64,000 nt of DNA. It comes from Candidatus Nitrospira neomarina (GTDB lineage: Bacteria > Nitrospirota > Nitrospiria > Nitrospirales > UBA8639). Made by a program: the position numbers and the translations under genes. The notes beneath the pieces are model-generated. The model saw only the letters and a program-made list of their open reading frames with translations, was not told the DNA's origin and ran no database searches. The DNA is taken from contig NZ_CP116968.1 of the NCBI RefSeq assembly GCF_032051675.1, positions 4,395,001 to 4,459,000 on the forward strand. Reading direction: 5' to 3'. This document shows, piece after piece, positions 13,925 to 53,466 of the stretch. The number at the start of each line of letters is the position of its first letter. Position 1 is the first letter of the stretch.

Positions 13925-16900
13925 TCAGGGAACCTCGGATGTATGGATAGTTTCAAATAGTGTTCGGGGTTGAGAGAGCACTTCCCATTTCAGAATGGAT
14001 AGTGAGTCATCCACATAAACAGGATGTCGCATGCCGTTGAGCACACAGGTTACACCTGGGATACTGGCAACCGCCCAGAGGGCTATACGGGCAAAGGGTT
14101 CTTCCCTTTTGGATTCTGGTATGAGGGGGTCAATGAGCTTTCGAATTTCAGAGAGTTTCTTGGCACTTTTTTGTGCGGCCTCCATGCGCATGACCTTAAG
14201 GAGGGAGACGAGTTCAGGGACATAGCGATCGCGCCACGATTCCCATATTTGTTCCTCTTCCTGTTTGCCGGCGAAATGTCGGGTAAGCAGTTGGAAGACC
14301 TGATTGGCATGTGGGGCAATCGTTTGAGATTCAATTTGGTCCCAGTGCTCAAGATTTTGGATAGAGAGACGAATTCGTTTCAGTTCTTCGGCCCAGTTGA
14401 AATAGTCCAGCGGAGCAGCTCCTTTTTCGGGTTTAGGGACCTGGGGTGCTAACACCTGCTTGTAGTCGTGTTCCAGCGCGGCGACTTTTGGTTGTTGGGC
14501 ATCAAAGTTTGTATTGGAAATTTCGATCTGAGGGTCTGCGAGTCGGATCATCCCTCCGCCTTTTCCAGGAATGGCATTCAAAGGCCGGTTCACCAGGACA
14601 GCAATGTTGGCTTCCTGGGCAAATGCCAAGACCGTTTGCGTCTGTTCGGGGCCGGTATTGGGCGTGAGCAGAGCTCCCGATTCAAACACATTCATCGGGA
14701 GTTGCAGTATTCGAAAATGATGGTGCGGAATGCCGGCGTGCTTCGCGGCAGCCTCAGCGGCCTTGAGCATGCGAGAGAGTGAGGTGGCTTCGGGATTATC
14801 GGGTTTGGCCGTGCAGGTGTTGGAGGAGACTCCATAGTATTGCAACCTGCCTGCAGCGATTTGTGTCTCCAGATAAGAAAATGCCTGTTGCAGGCGGCGA
14901 TAAAACTCCTGCCGGAGATCTTCAAGTCTGATGGGATCAATCGACAAATTCCTGTTCTTGGCATCGGATAGAAAATATTCTGGATTGTGCAGGAGGCAGA
15001 TATCCAGGGTTTCCAGTCCCAAGCGATCAAGGGACAGAATGAGTTGTTCTTCTAGAAACGAAGGATGGAGGCAATGCCAGATGCCTTCGCCATATTTGAC
15101 CATCTCGGGAAATGGTTTGCCGGCTTGTTCTCTGGTCTCAGCGCGCGTAAGATTATTTCCCTGCACATAGCCGATTTTCGAAACCACGATGACTTCATCA
15201 CGGGAGACAACCTCTTTCGCGATGAGATCCTTGAGTACAACACCCACCAAGCGTTCGCTTCCACCGTCGGCATAATTGGTGGACGTATCGATCAGGTTGC
15301 ACCCGCCCTGTAAAGACTTTTCAAGAGCCTTTCGGTGGTCTTCCACTCCAAGGTTGATCCGGTAACCACCAAAGCCTATGCGAGAGGTGGTCAATCCGGT
15401 TGAACCCAAAGACGTATATCCATGAGAGGAAGGGCCAGAATCCTGGGGGCTGGCCAGGATTCTGGCCACGTACTGCCCCGTCCCTTGAGGAGTGGCATGT
15501 CCGGAAAGCCCCTGGCTGGTCAGTGCTTGCAAGGGTGGGTCTGGTGAGGTGATGGTTCCCTGAGGATAGGTCAATACGTCAATTGCCTCTTGAGGATCGG
15601 TAATCGGAGCCTGGCAGGCAAAGTTTTTACAGACGTAGAGCGCGGCTTGCCCATTGACCAGGGTTTTCCCAGTTAACAGAGGATGAGGGGTTTCAGCCTC
15701 CAGCTCTTGCCGATAGGCCAAAATGCGATACGGTACGAAACACGCATTGACCGCCGTGCGGAGTTGGCCATATCCCTTGTCTGCGGGAGATCCCACGAGA
15801 GCCAATTCCACCGGGCCTCGTAATAAAAGATCGACAACCATAAGACTTTTGGGAAATCCCCGTGGCACCTGACCGATTTGCTGTCCATAGGCACGAATAG
15901 CATTGGTCGCGGCTTTCCGAAAGTCTTCGCGATCACCGTGAAAGGATAAGCGGGCTAACGCCGATGCGGCTACCGCATTTCCACTGGGAGTTGCGCCATC
16001 CGCGCCTTCCCGCCCCCGGATAATTAAGGCCTCATGATCGGCGGCTGTGGTAAAGAATCCTCCATGGTCTCGATCTTCAAAGTCTTCAATGAGGCGTTCC
16101 GCTAATGAGACTCCTTCATGGAGATACCGTTCAAGCCCCGTCGCTTCATAGACATCGATCATCGCCTCGGCCGCATAGGCATAATCCTCCAAGCAGGCAT
16201 TGAGGTGAGCGTGCCCCGCCCGATAGGTACGCCAGAGCCGGCTTTCAGGCCGTGAAAGCGTGGTCAGCAGGAAATCGGCGGCCCGGATGGCACCATCCAG
16301 ATACGGTTCATGGTTGAAAACTCGACCGGCTTCCGCCATCGTCCCGATCATCATGCCATTCCAGGCGGTAATGATTTTGTCATCGAGTCCCGGTGGTACA
16401 CGTTTCAGACGAGCCTGGTATACGATTGGTTTTGCACGCATGATGGTCTCGCGTAAGTCTTCAGGGGAACAGCCCAATTCCTCCGCTACCGATTTTAGTG
16501 ATTTTTTTGTGCGTGGGATGTTGGTGTGTTCCCAATTGCCTTCATCCGTGATGTCGTAATATGCGCAGAAGCGGGTGGCGTCTTGTTCGTTTGTCAGAAT
16601 TTCACGTATCTGGTCCGGCGTCCACACGAAAAACTTGCCTTCTACTCCTTCGCTGTCCGCATCGGTGGCTGAATAAAAACCACCTTCCGGTGCGGTCATT
16701 TCACGCAAAATGTAATCTAAGGTCTCTGTGGCGACCTGGCGGTATCGATTCTCCCCTGTGACTTGAAACGCTTCAACGTATGTCCGTGCAAGGAGGGCGT
16801 TGTCATACAGCATTTTTTCAAAATGCGGGGCTAACCATTCGTCATCGGTGGAGTAGCGAGCAAATCCTCCACCGATATGATCATACAGTCCGCCTTCGGC

Positions 16901-17635
16901 CATCCCATCCAGGGTTTTGGTGACCATGGAGAGTATTTTCTTCTCTCGACTCCAGTGATATTGGCGCAGGAGAAAGGAGAGGCCGGTGGCAGGTGGAAAT
17001 TTGGGTGCACGTCCAAATCCCCCGTAACGTGCGTCAAAATCACGGGCATATTGCTTGACGGCATCTTCAATTTCGGCTGCACCAACGGCAAGGGGAGATG
17101 CGGGTTCCAGGGCGTTTCGCAGGCGTGAGGTGAATCGACTGGCTTGTTGGGTGATGTTGGCTTGATCTTTCTTCCACCCCTCTCCAATGTTTGTCAGAAT
17201 TGATCCGAATCCCGGACGACCATAGCGGTCGGTGGGAGGAAAATAGGTTCCCGCAAAAATGGGTTCCTGATCAGGGGTGAGAAATACGGTCATGGGCCAT
17301 CCGCCGTGCCCCTGGTTCATGGCAGTCGTGGCCTGCATATAGATTTCATCCAAATCCGGACGTTCTTCCCTGTCCACTTTAATATTCACAAAGTAGCGGT
17401 TCATCAGATCCGCGATGGCCTGATTTTCAAAGGATTCCCGCTCCATTACGTGGCACCAATGGCAGGCTGAATAGCCTATGGAGAGCAAGATAGGCTTATT
17501 TTCTTTTTTTGCTAGATTCAGCGCCTCTTCTCCCCAGGGGAACCAATCTACCGGGTTGTAGGCATGTTGAAGAAGATAAGGGCTGGTTTCGTGACTCAGA
17601 CGATTGGGTTGGCGTTCTGCTGTGGATTCAGACAT
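13925..17635 (-). CDS. DUF255 (thioredoxin-like YyaL) - aldo/keto reductase fusion
   Basis: A 1,236-residue protein with two parts. Residues 1 to about 680 match the YyaL/spermatogenesis-associated-protein-20 family: [19 protein letters not shown] at the N-terminus, a thioredoxin-like domain with a CHWC active site at residues 58-61, then an alpha/alpha-barrel resembling N-acylglucosamine epimerases. From about residue 738 the protein becomes an aldo/keto reductase. That part starts [18 protein letters not shown] and keeps the whole catalytic tetrad: Asp and Tyr in [12 protein letters not shown], Lys in VIVVSKIGY, His in CLLHNPEYF. Usually these are separate proteins of about 680 and 300-450 residues. 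The linker, near residues 700-738, is Ser/Gly/Thr-rich. There is no signal peptide. The substrate is unknown; the fusion implies linked redox steps. Confidence 0.88.
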
Positions 17636-31054: not shown

Positions 31055-32455
31055 TTAGGGAATGGCTCGGATTTGAATCCCATCGACCCGCTCTTGAGCC
31101 AACACGTCTGAGATAATCACGACTTTGTCTCCTATTTGAAAATGTTCACGGGTTTTTAATATCCGAAATGCGGTTTGTAACGTTTTCTCCGGGTCTGAAC
31201 TAAAGTCGATCCGAAAGGGATAGACCCCTCGATTGAGCGTCATCGTTCGACGGGATTGACTCCCGTTTGTGAAAGCATAAATGTTTGTGGAAAATGGACG
31301 ACAATTCGAGACCAGATCCGCCATGATACCTCGTCGGGTGATCACGACAATCCCTTTGGCGCGTAGTCCTTCTGCGAGCTGGACGGCAGCGGTGGCGAGT
31401 TGTTGTTTGTCGGTCGTCAGCTTTAACTGTTTCGCAAACTGCAAACCTGGAATGGCTTCGGTTTTGAGGGAGATTTTTCGCAGATACTCGATGCATTTCA
31501 GCGGATATTTTCCGACCGTGGTTTCTCCCGATAACATCACCCCGTCGACCTCCTCATAAATGGCATTCGCCACGTCAGTGACCTCGGCACGCGTAGGGAT
31601 GGGATTATGGATCATCGATTCCAGGAGATGGGTTGCCACAATCACGCGCTTGCCGGATTCCGCGCAGAGTCGCACAATTCTGCGCTGCACATTCGGCAGA
31701 TCCTCCAGGTTGATTTCTGCCCCTAAATCTCCGCGAGCCACCATGATGCCATCCGATTCCCGGATAATATCCTCCAGATTACGAACCCCTTCCTGATCTT
31801 CAATCTTGGCAATAATTTTCACCCTCCCCACTTTGGGCCCCATCAACTGTTTCAATTGTTGGATATCCTTCGCTTCCCGAACAAAGGACAGCGCAATGTA
31901 ATCCACATCGGCGGCTAAACCAAAGGCAATATCCTTTTCGTCCTTTTGCGTAATCGCCGGGAGATTGACCCGGATTCCCGGTAAATTGACATGGCGTTTG
32001 CTTTTTAAAACCCCCCCATCAATGACCCGGCACTGCATGAGGCGATCCTGTTTTTCAAGGACCTCAAAATTGATCAACCCATTATCCACGGTAATCTTAT
32101 CGCCGACATTCACGGACTCCATTAAATCGGCATAGTTGATGTGAATGGAGCTTTCTTCCACATCCATCGGCCCCCGTGCAGAAATCGAGACGATCGTGCC
32201 TTCCTGGAGATTGAGATCAATCGATAAATCTCCTGTCCGGATTTCAGGGCCTTGGGTATCCAGAAGAATCGGAATAGGAAAGGGAACCTTGGTATTGAGG
32301 GTCTTAATGTGTTTGATCACTTTGGCATGGGATTCGTGGGTCCCATGGGACATATTCAATCGCACGATGTTCATGCCGGCGTCATACATTTTGCGTAACA
32401 TCTCGTACGATTCGGTCACCGGTCCGATCGTGCAGATAATTTTGGTCTTTTGCAT
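31055..32455 (-). CDS. pyk: pyruvate kinase
   Basis: A 466-residue glycolytic enzyme that makes pyruvate and ATP from phosphoenolpyruvate and ADP. It starts KTKIICTIGPVTES, with NIVRLNMSHGTHESH next, and LLDTQGPEIRTG. The catalytic region IIAKIEDQEGVRNLEDII includes the active-site lysine, followed by MVARGDLGAEI and VMLSGETTVGKYPLKCI. The C-terminal regulatory domain is present to GIQIRAIP. The start has AGGGAA nine bases upstream. It is a single gene, convergent with coaBC and about 700 bases from the phosphofructokinase-like fusion, so two glycolysis-related genes lie back to back. Confidence 0.96.
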   Translation of the reverse strand: MQKTKIICTIGPVTESYEMLRKMYDAGMNIVRLNMSHGTHESHAKVIKHIKTLNTKVPFPIPILLDTQGPEIRTGDLSIDLNLQEGTIVSISARGPMDVEESSIHINYADLMESVNVGDKITVDNGLINFEVLEKQDRLMQCRVIDGGVLKSKRHVNLPGIRVNLPAITQKDEKDIAFGLAADVDYIALSFVREAKDIQQLKQLMGPKVGRVKIIAKIEDQEGVRNLEDIIRESDGIMVARGDLGAEINLEDLPNVQRRIVRLCAESGKRVIVATHLLESMIHNPIPTRAEVTDVANAIYEEVDGVMLSGETTVGKYPLKCIEYLRKISLKTEAIPGLQFAKQLKLTTDKQQLATAAVQLAEGLRAKGIVVITRRGIMADLVSNCRPFSTNIYAFTNGSQSRRTMTLNRGVYPFRIDFSSDPEKTLQTAFRILKTREHFQIGDKVVIISDVLAQERVDGIQIRAIP

Positions 32456-33023: not shown

Positions 33024-33163
33024 ATAGAATGATCGTATCGGCAGGTGACATCAGACGGTTATGTCGAGGACTTGTGTTGTCGATCAGGTGGGATATTATT
33101 ATGATGATGGGACAAGATGAATATGAAATCAAGAATAGCTGAAGGATTGGAAGAGGTGCATAG

Positions 33164-35479
33164 ATGAAAACGGAAGCCGAGACTCTGGAATTTGTCACAA
33201 TTAATGGGCTGCTCATCTATGGTGAGGTCATTGCGAGGCGACCGCCGGTAGAGGGAGCAGGGCCTCATCCCCCGTTACCTCCCATGGAAGATCGTCCGCA
33301 ACGGGTGTTAGAGGCCATGGCCGCCCTACGACTGTTTGTCCGGGATGCCCAAAAAGGGTTTGCCAATGCGGCGGCCTACAGAGGGGCAAGACAGGCGCTA
33401 ATTCAGCAGGCCTGCGGTGGAGATGAGTTGATGTTTTTCGCGGCCTGGAATCAACTGCTCGCTCAGGGCGAGCTTTCTCCGTTATTTCGGGCCCCTATCG
33501 GGGCCACGAATAAACCCATACGACGTCGACCCGTGGCGATCGTTCCGCGCGAGCATATGACGCCCAATCTGGCTGAGGGTCGGATTGTCCTTGATATCGG
33601 GGATGACCGCTATTGGTTGATGCCGAGAGATTTAAGTGCCCGCACACTGTTTTTCACGATGCGGCACGGCGTCTCTCAGATGGATAGTAAAAAGTTTCGT
33701 GTGGGGCGACGGTTGAAGAATGTTCTTGATGCCGAGCGGGGAATTCCCAAGGCTGATGCCATCGGAACCGCCCTGGTCCGGACCTTGGGCCTGGTCGGAA
33801 AGCAACTGGATTTCCTTCAGCTCGATAACTACCTGGATGCGAAATCATTTGTCCATATGGTGAGTCAAAGCCCCAATACCCGACAGCTTTTTGAACGGGT
33901 CGTCTCCGTCCTGTCTCCCGAGACAGCCGGGACCACCGAGCCCATCACGGAATGGGCATTGGAATCACAAGACTTTGGATGGGCTACCGGTATTGAGAAA
34001 ACGATTGAAATTGAAGAAGCCGCCAAGGCCTTTGGGGTCGACACGAAAACGGCCCAGCGTCTGATTAAGCATCCGCTGTACAGTTATCCGGGAGGCCACT
34101 CCTTCTTTGAACTGTATGTGGAGTTGGTCGATGGGTTCCATCAATTAGGCCAGAGTCATCAGGGAAAAGTGTTGTGTTTATATACGCACAGCTCAACGCT
34201 ACGGGCGCTCTTAATATTTCTCGATCCACGGCCGTTCAGTGAAGCCTTTTCCGAATTTGGAGCCTATAAGGAAGGACAGGACAACGTCGTCCTCCTCACC
34301 TATGAGCATGGGCAATTGTCGGGCTACTCCACGGCCGTGGGTCTTTCAGAACGGGAAAAGGCCGTCCGCGAGGCCTGGATGACCGTGGAACAGAGCCGCC
34401 GGGAGAAGGTGGCGCTCAAGCCACGGCAAATTCGGCGAATTGTCGCACTGGTCTCAGGTGGAGATTTTGCCGGAGCCGGTGCGGCATTGAAGGAACTCCG
34501 TGTGACCGGGAATCGATTAGGTCTGGAAGTCTATTTCGTTCAACACGGATTTCTGGGGTTGGCCAATAATTGGATTGAGTTGGTGACGGAACAGGACACA
34601 CGTGGCATGAGCAACCATGCCAGCAGCCCGATTGGCAGCAGCCGGTTTGAAGATTTTAAAGATGAGGAGGTCCAACTGGCCGCCATTCATCATCTCAAGC
34701 CATATATGAAGGATGGGGCGCTCATCGTGATGGGAGGGGACGGAAGTATGCGTGGGGCTCGCGCCATCTATGAACGGTTCGGCATCCAGGTCGTGGGGAT
34801 TCCCGGTTCGATCGACGACAATATCGCCGGGACCACCTCACTGGGTGTCCAATCGGCTGTCGCCTTGGCCAACCAATCCATCGAGTCGCTGAAAGCAACC
34901 AGCGCGGCCATGGGCAGTGTGTTTTTTGTGGAGGTCATGGGGGCAGGATCCGGGCACCTGGCGCTTATGTGTGCCTACCAGGCACGAGCTGAAGGCTTGT
35001 TGGTCAATGAACATCCTGATCCGAATGCCTATATCGAGGAGGTGGTTCTGGGCACACTGAAACAGACGTTGGGCGTCCGGAATAAAAGCCATATTATTAT
35101 CGTGGCCGAACGCACCCCGCACCAGTATCATCCTGAAGGCGGGGTCCATGGCCTGGTGGATTATTTCGGCAGTAGGATTTCTCAATGGACGCATCTGCAA
35201 ACCCGGTCCGGCCACTACCCCCTGTCGGTGGCGACCAAGGCCACCATTCTTGGCCATACCCTGCGAGGAGCTTTTCCCACTCCCGTGGACAAAACCATGG
35301 CCCAACTTTTTGCCTATGAGGCCATCCGGCGGTTGATCGAACAACCGGATCAGGTCATCGGCTGCATGTTAGCCTACCGCGATCCCGGAACCATTCAGCC
35401 CATTCCTCTGCATGCCGTGGCACCCAAGCCCTTTGATTGGGAACTGTTCGCCCGCATGCACGGAACTGAATTGGTGTAG
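33164..35479 (+). CDS. histidine phosphatase - 6-phosphofructokinase fusion
   Basis: A 771-residue protein joining two catalytic folds. Residues about 160-395 are a histidine phosphatase (phosphoglycerate mutase-like) domain: the phospho-accepting motif is FTMRHGVSQMDSKKF (R167-H168-G169), the second histidine is H342 in YTHSSTLRALL, and the region PGGHSFFELYVEL has His where relatives usually have the acid Glu. Residues about 425-771 resemble ATP-dependent phosphofructokinase-1: SGGDFAG, ATP loop GGDGSMRGA (524-532), substrate loop GIPGSIDDNIAGT with catalytic D551, VEVMGAGSGHLAL and ATILGHTLRGAFPTPVDK. IDDN replaces the usual IDND and MGA replaces MGR. GAAGAGGTG precedes the ATG. The layout is reminiscent of animal PFK-2/FBPase-2, but the kinase fold is of the PFK-1 type. 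Residues 1-155 are unassigned. Confidence 0.85.
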   Translation: MKTEAETLEFVTINGLLIYGEVIARRPPVEGAGPHPPLPPMEDRPQRVLEAMAALRLFVRDAQKGFANAAAYRGARQALIQQACGGDELMFFAAWNQLLAQGELSPLFRAPIGATNKPIRRRPVAIVPREHMTPNLAEGRIVLDIGDDRYWLMPRDLSARTLFFTMRHGVSQMDSKKFRVGRRLKNVLDAERGIPKADAIGTALVRTLGLVGKQLDFLQLDNYLDAKSFVHMVSQSPNTRQLFERVVSVLSPETAGTTEPITEWALESQDFGWATGIEKTIEIEEAAKAFGVDTKTAQRLIKHPLYSYPGGHSFFELYVELVDGFHQLGQSHQGKVLCLYTHSSTLRALLIFLDPRPFSEAFSEFGAYKEGQDNVVLLTYEHGQLSGYSTAVGLSEREKAVREAWMTVEQSRREKVALKPRQIRRIVALVSGGDFAGAGAALKELRVTGNRLGLEVYFVQHGFLGLANNWIELVTEQDTRGMSNHASSPIGSSRFEDFKDEEVQLAAIHHLKPYMKDGALIVMGGDGSMRGARAIYERFGIQVVGIPGSIDDNIAGTTSLGVQSAVALANQSIESLKATSAAMGSVFFVEVMGAGSGHLALMCAYQARAEGLLVNEHPDPNAYIEEVVLGTLKQTLGVRNKSHIIIVAERTPHQYHPEGGVHGLVDYFGSRISQWTHLQTRSGHYPLSVATKATILGHTLRGAFPTPVDKTMAQLFAYEAIRRLIEQPDQVIGCMLAYRDPGTIQPIPLHAVAPKPFDWELFARMHGTELV

Positions 35480-44162: not shown

Positions 44163-44306
44163 ATTGTTGCGGCAATTGTCAATTCACGCACAATTCTTCT
44201 CGTTTGCGGGGTAGTTGATTTTTAAGACGGAAAGAGTAGAGTAGCGCAATCTCCCGGTCCGAAAATGGGAGGCGTGCGGACTTCACCCACCACAAAGAGA
44301 GTCATC

Positions 44307-44918
44307 ATGGCACCGAAAAAACCATCCAAGAAACCTGCGAAGCCGACCGAGCCTGAACCATTCAACAAACGCAAGGTGAACCCCGCCAAATTTCCCTCAG
44401 ACCTACCGTTGAAGAATCTCAAAGACCTATTCGAACCGGTCAGTGGCTGGCGCAATGTCGGCCTGTTTATATTTCCGATAGAGACATTGAGCCCGGCCAA
44501 GACCGTAGGGCGTGGCCGCACCAATCTGACGCTCATCAGACCGACCATCGTCCAGGTGGATGCGACCACGCCGTATGCCGGATTCGACCGTCGGGAGTCG
44601 CCCAATCGGGATCCCGCCGTGTCCATGCACTTTGAGCCGAAAGCCTATGGGATTACGGCCGTCTCGACATACGTCATGGTCTTCTCGATTGAGATCTTTG
44701 GACAGGCATCCACGTTCAACCTATCCGGGTTCGCCGGGGGTGGCACGGTCGCCAACAGTGGCTCACGCACATTGAGTGGCCAGACAACGGTGTCGCTGGT
44801 GCTCAGGAACGTGCCACCCTCGGCACAGGTCTGGGGAGCCATCACGCAGACGGCGGGTGGGCAATGGAACTGGTACACCGTGCAGGCTCGCTATCCGGCG
44901 CTGGTCGTGAAAGCGTAG
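44307..44918 (+). CDS. uncharacterised 203-residue protein
   Basis: I do not recognise this protein. I start it at the ATG at 44307 (MAPKKPSKKPAKPTEPEPFN), after AGAGAG; a start at 44265 would add 14 residues. Residues 1-35 are Lys/Pro-rich and probably disordered. From about residue 45 the sequence is rich in predicted beta strands (NVGLFIFPIETLSP, TYVMVFSIEIFG, TVSLVLRNVPPSAQVWGAI) and in Gly/Ser/Thr, like a secreted or surface beta-sandwich, but there is no signal peptide. The codon pattern looks real and no other ORF competes well. The gene is isolated. From 44919 to 45308 I see no gene. Confidence 0.6.
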   Translation: MAPKKPSKKPAKPTEPEPFNKRKVNPAKFPSDLPLKNLKDLFEPVSGWRNVGLFIFPIETLSPAKTVGRGRTNLTLIRPTIVQVDATTPYAGFDRRESPNRDPAVSMHFEPKAYGITAVSTYVMVFSIEIFGQASTFNLSGFAGGGTVANSGSRTLSGQTTVSLVLRNVPPSAQVWGAITQTAGGQWNWYTVQARYPALVVKA

Positions 44919-52395: not shown

Positions 52396-53466
52396 TTAAA
52401 AATCGTAGAGGTGGTCGAGTTGCACAGCCGCTTGTTCCAGGGTCGGCAGGGTTTCATGCAGCTGTTTTATCGGGACGAAGAGTGCCACGCGCTTCCGGTC
52501 CGGCTGCGTCAGGATGGGCCATTCGCAGACTTTGCGGCCGATATGATGCCGGTCCTGCCAGTCATGCGGTGCGATGATGGTTATGAGGATCTGCTCATTG
52601 CCAGCCACTTCAATCAGCCTGACATCATGATCGATCAAGGTTTTCACCGCTTGCTTGAAAGGTTCGTAGCGCGGGATCGCCATTAAATAGGAACGGTCAC
52701 CGAGTTGGTCGAGCACGCGAATAGAGGGATCGAGTGCTGCGATATCTTTCGACCCCTGTTTCACCCAAGCCTGGATCTCGAGCGCTTCGGGGTCATAACC
52801 TGCGCCAGTCCCTTGCTTAATTGCCCAGCCCCAGGCGGTTTTGAATAAGAGCTCCATTGTGAATTCAAAACGCCGTTCCCATCGTCGCATGGCACTGCCT
52901 TCCGCCTCTCCCGGCAGACTCCAAAACTCCTTGAGCTTGGCTGAGAACGGATACTCATACCAGGGGGTGGCGTGGATGAAGGCGGAATAATCTTGTGCCA
53001 CGTGCTGAATGAATCGATCTTCTCTGGTTGTTGCCTGCCAGGGTCCAGCTGTTGACGCCCAGGCGGTGATGGCTCCGACCGTCGTCTCGTAGAGGCCTTT
53101 GAAGAGGTACTCCGCCGTAAAGCTTGCTCCGATGACACCGATCATCACGTGATAGCCCCAGTTGAATGAGGGCGTGCTCCATGCTTCGTAAAGGATCTGC
53201 CCGTAGAGACTCCAGAACTGACTGATGCTGCGGAAGTAAGGAAAGTCGCTCGGCGGGTGAGATTGAACAAAGGCGCCGAACTCGTCAGCGCTGTATACGA
53301 TGTACCACTCCGGCAGCGTGAGAAATGTCTGGTCTTCGCTACGGGCGTAGTGCGTCAGGGCCTGGAGTTTTTTTTTACATCCTGCCGGCTGGTGGACGTT
53401 GCAGTCGGAGTGAGAGTCGCTGTCGATATAGGAGTCGTGGCTGGAGGTTGGTAGTACCGGTCCCAA
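52396..53466 (-). CDS. uncharacterised protein, probably the frameshifted C-terminal part of the upstream FAD oxidase gene product
   Basis: I do not recognise the family. The open frame allows a TTG at 53466, but the first ~35 residues from there lie inside the upstream gene and are low complexity. The conserved-looking part starts TFLTLPEWYIVYSADEFGAF near residue 48 and runs for about 300 residues, rich in Trp/Tyr/Phe, with a possible membrane helix in YHVMIGVIGASFTAEYLF. No ATG, GTG or better TTG precedes it. A run of nine A residues (coding strand, about 53368-53376) can shift the ribosome or polymerase by -1 from the FAD-oxidase frame into this one (GTA AAA AAA, then AAA CTC). It may thus be made as a fusion, or the two genes may be an old fusion broken by an indel. 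Confidence 0.6.
   Translation of the reverse strand: MGPVLPTSSHDSYIDSDSHSDCNVHQPAGCKKKLQALTHYARSEDQTFLTLPEWYIVYSADEFGAFVQSHPPSDFPYFRSISQFWSLYGQILYEAWSTPSFNWGYHVMIGVIGASFTAEYLFKGLYETTVGAITAWASTAGPWQATTREDRFIQHVAQDYSAFIHATPWYEYPFSAKLKEFWSLPGEAEGSAMRRWERRFEFTMELLFKTAWGWAIKQGTGAGYDPEALEIQAWVKQGSKDIAALDPSIRVLDQLGDRSYLMAIPRYEPFKQAVKTLIDHDVRLIEVAGNEQILITIIAPHDWQDRHHIGRKVCEWPILTQPDRKRVALFVPIKQLHETLPTLEQAAVQLDHLYDF

Follow-up and report, generated by a model that had tools for sequence, protein, structure and literature searches.

The described proteins that most resemble the one reported here are bacterial PfkA phosphofructokinase (PF00365), branch 1 of the histidine phosphatase superfamily (phosphoglycerate mutase, PhoE, phosphoserine phosphatase and FBPase-2), animal PFK-2/FBPase-2 (PFKFB) and the PFK-1 enzymes of yeast and mammals. 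PFK-2/FBPase-2 carries a sugar-kinase-type domain and a histidine-phosphatase-fold domain in one chain. Fructose 2,6-bisphosphate is not known to act as a regulator in bacteria. In yeast and mammalian PFK-1, domains added to the PFK core or degenerate halves of it serve regulation, and yeast PFKs bear an extra N-terminal glyoxalase-like domain (PMC12203962).

The window, a stretch of 64,000 nucleotides from Candidatus Nitrospira neomarina, encodes a 771-amino-acid protein (33164..35479, + strand) in which a helical N-terminal domain is followed by a histidine-phosphatase-fold domain and then by a phosphofructokinase domain. With PfkA it shares the PF00365 domain, the GGDGS donor motif, Asp127, Glu222, His249 and Arg252, but Asp129, Arg162, Arg171 and Arg243 are replaced, as are the effector-site residues Arg25, Arg54 and Lys213, and a 415-residue N-terminal extension precedes the domain. 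With branch 1 phosphatases it shares the fold (residues 150-392), the RHG motif and the second His, but it is without the Glu/Asp acid and has a kinase attached, and its relatives vary at the presumed place of the second Arg. It shares a PFK core with added sequence with the eukaryotic PFK-1 enzymes, whereas those enzymes have gained another PFK half or a glyoxalase-like domain and not a phosphatase fold (PMC12203962). No phosphatase is mentioned in the text of a 2025 review covering the PFK superfamily (PMC12203962), and literature searches of openly accessible papers found no described phosphatase-PFK fusion. The protein seems to be a previously undescribed device that controls sugar metabolism.

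The gene is a single, uninterrupted frame. A Shine-Dalgarno-like sequence, GGAAGAGG (33149..33156, +), lies 7 nt upstream of its ATG and is predicted to be a good ribosome-binding site. The codon-position GC pattern is uniform over the gene, without a break at the domain junction. A search for the same domain order across genomes recovered 113 distinct full-length relatives joined in the same way, confirming the earlier proposal that both domains belong to one chain. Two genes joined by a frameshift or misassembly, which the first-pass annotation had named as a way for its reading to be wrong, can be set aside with near certainty: the 113 fusions come from genomes independent of one another, many of which are complete or consist of few contigs, and no evidence in favour of such an artefact was found. 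The fusion looks broken in one genome (G027, locus L021), where stops fall within the frame, and it appears fragmentary in another (G024), with pieces at contig ends. Elsewhere in the window, a 1236-aa ORF (13925-17635, -) has a DUF255/thioredoxin-type (YyaL-like) protein fused with an aldo/keto reductase domain, and two ORFs, of 356 aa (52396-53466, -) and 217 aa (44265-44918, +), have no Pfam match.

All 113 relatives belong to the class Nitrospiria and are 59-98% identical to the window copy. Carriers in a scan of named genomes include Candidatus Nitrospira defluvii, many Nitrospira MAGs and one Candidatus Manganitrophaceae MAG, and a search among 59 relatives found the fusion full-length in most carriers. 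The N-terminal half is present in 101 of 395 genomes of the phylum, nearly always within an open frame of ~765-890 aa, and no fusion was found outside the one class in this sample. A scan of 84,980 species genomes, queried with two specific peptides that remote relatives may escape, gave 80 best loci that are all from Nitrospirota or from records with seemingly misassigned names, and another 34 loci were confirmed beyond these 80. No relatives were found on viral contigs. Conservation is highest in the PFK part, lower in the phosphatase part and lowest in the N-terminal 125 residues. The fusion protein is old and strongly conserved in Nitrospira-type bacteria. A recent duplication of the class's own ATP-PFK is an unlikely origin, as those enzymes score far higher against E. 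coli PfkA than against the fusion.

The N-terminal half has a well-predicted structure. A model of residues 1-415, built from an alignment of 55 relatives, reached a pLDDT of 86 and a pTM of 0.87. About 155 N-terminal residues had been left unassigned by the first-pass annotation; the model now predicts, with confidence, a helical domain at residues 13-109, followed by strands that lead into the phosphatase domain, and the poorly conserved region 1-125 (33164..33538, +) still matches no Pfam family. Residues 150-392 (33611..34339, +) adopt a histidine-phosphatase fold in the model and align with Trichomonas phosphoglycerate mutase (Z 16.6, rmsd 3.0 over 203 residues), PhoE (Z 16.3, rmsd 2.5) and Hydrogenobacter phosphoserine phosphatase (Z 16.1). 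The Pfam family His_Phos_1 is below threshold in the window copy (E 0.03) and reaches E 7e-6 in the best relative. The fold and the RHG motif at residues 167-169 bear out the phosphatase domain proposed earlier, and the alternative that the N-terminal part has another fold is not what the model gives. Top Foldseek rows are a mixture of PFKFB3, phosphoglycerate mutases and TIGAR, so the resemblance is to the superfamily as a whole and does not single out FBPase-2. A low-confidence linker helix (residues 396-414; 34349..34405, +) ends the modelled half. An initial full-length model was poor (pLDDT 69, pTM 0.51, with an unreliable PFK half), and we therefore draw no inference on domain packing.

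The phosphatase site is only partly conserved. Arg167, His168 and Gly169 of the RHG motif (33662..33670, +), with His168 at the nucleophile position, are invariant in those of the 113 relatives that cover them, and the second catalytic-site histidine, His342 (34187..34189, +), is invariant as well. An alignment with PFKFB2, which also served to assign His342, puts His312 of the PGGHS motif (residues 309-313; 34088..34102, +) at the place of the FBPase-2 acid Glu. This substitution had been noted in the window copy and turns out to be family-wide: His occupies the position in 77 of the 113 relatives, Asn in the other 36 and Glu or Asp in none. The place of the second phosphate-binding Arg, assigned by motif alignment, is taken in the window copy by Arg240 (SPNTR; 33881..33883, +) and holds Arg in 68 of 113, with Glu, Thr, Lys, Ser, His or Gln in the other 45. 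On the tree, 3 changes fall in the acid column and 15 in the second-Arg column. With a fixed RHG motif and second His, a missing acid and a variable second Arg, the pocket is kept, but the usual RHG chemistry has probably been weakened or changed. The window's genome encodes further histidine phosphatases besides the fusion.

These residues bear on whether the protein is bifunctional, with the kinase making a phosphorylated sugar and the phosphatase removing a phosphate, so that one chain would determine how much of a sugar bisphosphate is present, much as PFK-2/FBPase-2 does. The invariant RHG motif and second His, together with the invariant ATP site and catalytic base of the kinase half, fit such a cycle, and His312 could serve as the acid where it is present. 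Against it, 36 of the 113 relatives would have to work with Asn at the acid place, none has Glu or Asp, and the second Arg is often replaced; we regard a bifunctional enzyme as unlikely, although worth weighing. The resemblance to PFK-2/FBPase-2 that the first-pass annotation had pointed out holds for the architecture and for its remark that the kinase folds are unrelated. It weakens beyond that, because the order is reversed (there a P-loop kinase precedes the phosphatase, here a PF00365 kinase follows it), the fold match is superfamily-wide and the phosphatase acid is missing. The parallel is architectural only.

The C-terminal half is a PfkA-type phosphofructokinase domain (residues 425-722; 34436..35329, +), as had been proposed, with a PF00365 match at E 1.8e-58 (198.6 bits against a cut-off of 30.9). 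Among NCBIfam models those of bacterial ATP-dependent PFKs rank first, with none over its own cut-off. Residues are numbered here as in E. coli PfkA without Met (sequence from NC_000913), and counts are from 55 non-redundant fusions. Gly11, Arg72, Asp103, Gly104, Asp127, Met169, Glu222, His249 and Arg252 are invariant. The donor signature is of the ATP type (GGDGS, residues 524-528; 34733..34747, +), with Gly104 and with Gly, not Lys, ahead of the TIDND place. The catalytic base Asp127 is retained as Asp551 in the SIDDN motif (residues 549-553; 34808..34822, +), in which Asn553 stands for Asp129, a residue that takes part in binding the metal cofactor (PMC10339645). Ala594 of the MGA motif (residues 592-594; 34937..34945, +) stands for Arg171. 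Both replacements, which had been noted in the window copy, occur in 55 of 55 fusions; the IDDN form is the rarer (14/55) and IDNN the commoner, and a divergent member (L183) has IDND and thus retains Asp129. In the stretch that binds the phosphate of the sugar (35237..35266, +), Lys692 replaces Arg243 in all 55, and His698 (His249) and Arg701 (Arg252) are kept. The place of Arg162 is Ser, Thr or Asn, and this residue is likewise replaced in active PPi-PFKs (PMC10339645). With Arg243 always Lys and His249 and Arg252 invariant, three of the four sugar-phosphate ligands are still basic. Effector-site residues are mixed.

This combination of kept and replaced residues can be read in more than one way. 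The kinase half could be dead or nearly so, in which case the protein would sense ATP and a sugar phosphate and regulate pyruvate kinase or another partner. Fixed or nearly fixed changes of Asp129 to Asn, Arg171 to Ala and Arg162 to Ser would fit a sensor, and alignments show that the half of eukaryotic PFK that has lost activity (PMC12203962) is also altered at the places of Asp129 and Arg171. That dead half, however, has lost the general base that the fusions hold invariant as Asp127, and we consider a pure sensor improbable, if not to be dismissed. Alternatively, both halves may act on new substrates, with the kinase using something other than fructose 6-phosphate and the phosphatase acting on a compound with a good leaving group, such as phosphohistidine, for which no strong acid is needed. 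In support of this, the sugar-site substitutions are themselves invariant (Ala594, Lys692, Asn553 and Arg530), suggesting a fixed new use and not decay. The neighbourhood points to no substrate beyond pyruvate kinase, and we find new substrates for both halves quite unlikely.

A pyruvate kinase gene (31055..32455, -) is the divergent neighbour of the fusion. Twelve further distinct fusions have too little flanking sequence, leaving 101 informative loci; pyruvate kinase lies within 1.2 kb of the fusion in 74 of these and is not found there in the other 27. It is upstream and divergent in 51, downstream on the same strand in 18 and downstream on the opposite strand in 5. The arrangement needs 9 changes on the tree, losses counted, with the convergent form seen in two distinct clades. 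Because the adjacency has been retained through rearrangement, it suggests a functional link between the two proteins; it would also suit a sensor that acts on pyruvate kinase. In the basal families of the class, pyruvate kinase does not adjoin the fusion. Many Nitrospira genomes have two pyruvate kinases, often one next to the fusion and one elsewhere. In Ca. Nitrospira defluvii (L127:8573-9595, +), genes for a barnase-type ribonuclease and barstar lie directly downstream of the fusion, and these recur in relatives.

Among 185 genomes that are at least 90% complete, pyruvate kinase is present in 114 of 117 with the fusion and in 38 of 68 without it, a co-occurrence for which shared ancestry, and the loss of glycolysis that some genera have in common, partly account. 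All sampled genomes of one genus of the same family with small genomes (g4) are without the fusion, any other PF00365 protein and pyruvate kinase. Streamlined Nitrospira forms without PFK have been described, and the fusion is not named in the part of that account considered here (PMC9239080). The fusion occurs with another PFK in 94 of the 185 genomes and alone in 23, with another PFK alone in 30 and neither in 38 (odds ratio 5.2, p 8e-7, with the genomes treated as unrelated). A separate PFK is thus usually present, as a sensor would allow, but the 23 genomes in which the fusion is the sole PF00365 protein, some of them complete and including the single-contig assemblies G229 and G155, speak against a dead kinase half. 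The existence of such genomes means that the fusion is not simply spare, yet it is not required wherever PFK occurs. The window's genome encodes another PFK (423 aa), which carries the motifs GGDDT and PKTIDND and is of the PPi type, and one FBPase of the PF00316 family; no GlpX was found in it. Fructose 6-phosphate and fructose 1,6-bisphosphate are thus covered by other enzymes, as the new-substrate reading would have it. The basal families of the class have ordinary PfkA or mixed-type enzymes alongside the fusion.

We tentatively favour, at somewhat less than an even chance, an ATP-binding sugar-phosphate kinase of the PfkA family with a phosphatase-derived regulatory domain that works with pyruvate kinase. 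The N-terminal module, comprising the helical and histidine-phosphatase-fold domains, would govern the activity of the kinase half. The acid-less pocket is most likely a regulatory site that binds phosphometabolites and perhaps becomes self-phosphorylated, and not a fast phosphatase. Together with pyruvate kinase, the fusion could form a control point of glycolysis in Nitrospiria, distinct from the reversible PPi-type phosphofructokinase and FBPase. A regulated kinase is consistent with the invariant ATP site, Asp127, Glu222, His249 and Arg252, the constant Lys at Arg243 and the best family match being to bacterial ATP-PFKs. It also agrees with a phosphatase pocket in which the RHG motif and second His are fixed while the acid is never present, and with the frequent adjacency and co-occurrence of pyruvate kinase, which is found in 22 of the 23 genomes with the fusion as the only PF00365 protein. 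Eukaryotic PFKs in which a dead half has turned into an effector site offer a precedent (PMC12203962). Conversely, the replacements at Asp129, Arg171 and Arg162 may reflect a kinase that is dead or that uses a different substrate, and the association with pyruvate kinase is in part common ancestry and loss and does not extend to next-door genes in the basal families.

A bolder proposal, which we hold to be rather doubtful, is that a bacterial lineage independently assembled a one-chain switch from a PFK-1-type kinase and a phosphatase-fold domain. Such a switch would either determine how much of a regulatory sugar phosphate is present or respond to phosphometabolites, and would in this way control pyruvate kinase and the flow of carbon in autotrophs that oxidise nitrite or manganese.

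Nitrospira-type bacteria drive nitrite oxidation and complete ammonia oxidation. To our knowledge, little is known about how they regulate the use of storage sugar versus growth by the reductive TCA cycle. Nitrospira has been reported to possess complete glycolysis and gluconeogenesis as well as glycogen storage, in an account that does not name the fusion in the part considered here (PMC8115632). Genome annotation should be cautious about treating a fusion with an altered sugar site as a functional phosphofructokinase of glycolysis. As a conserved, undescribed PFK variant paired with pyruvate kinase, it is a concrete target for studying the regulation of storage-sugar use in these bacteria.
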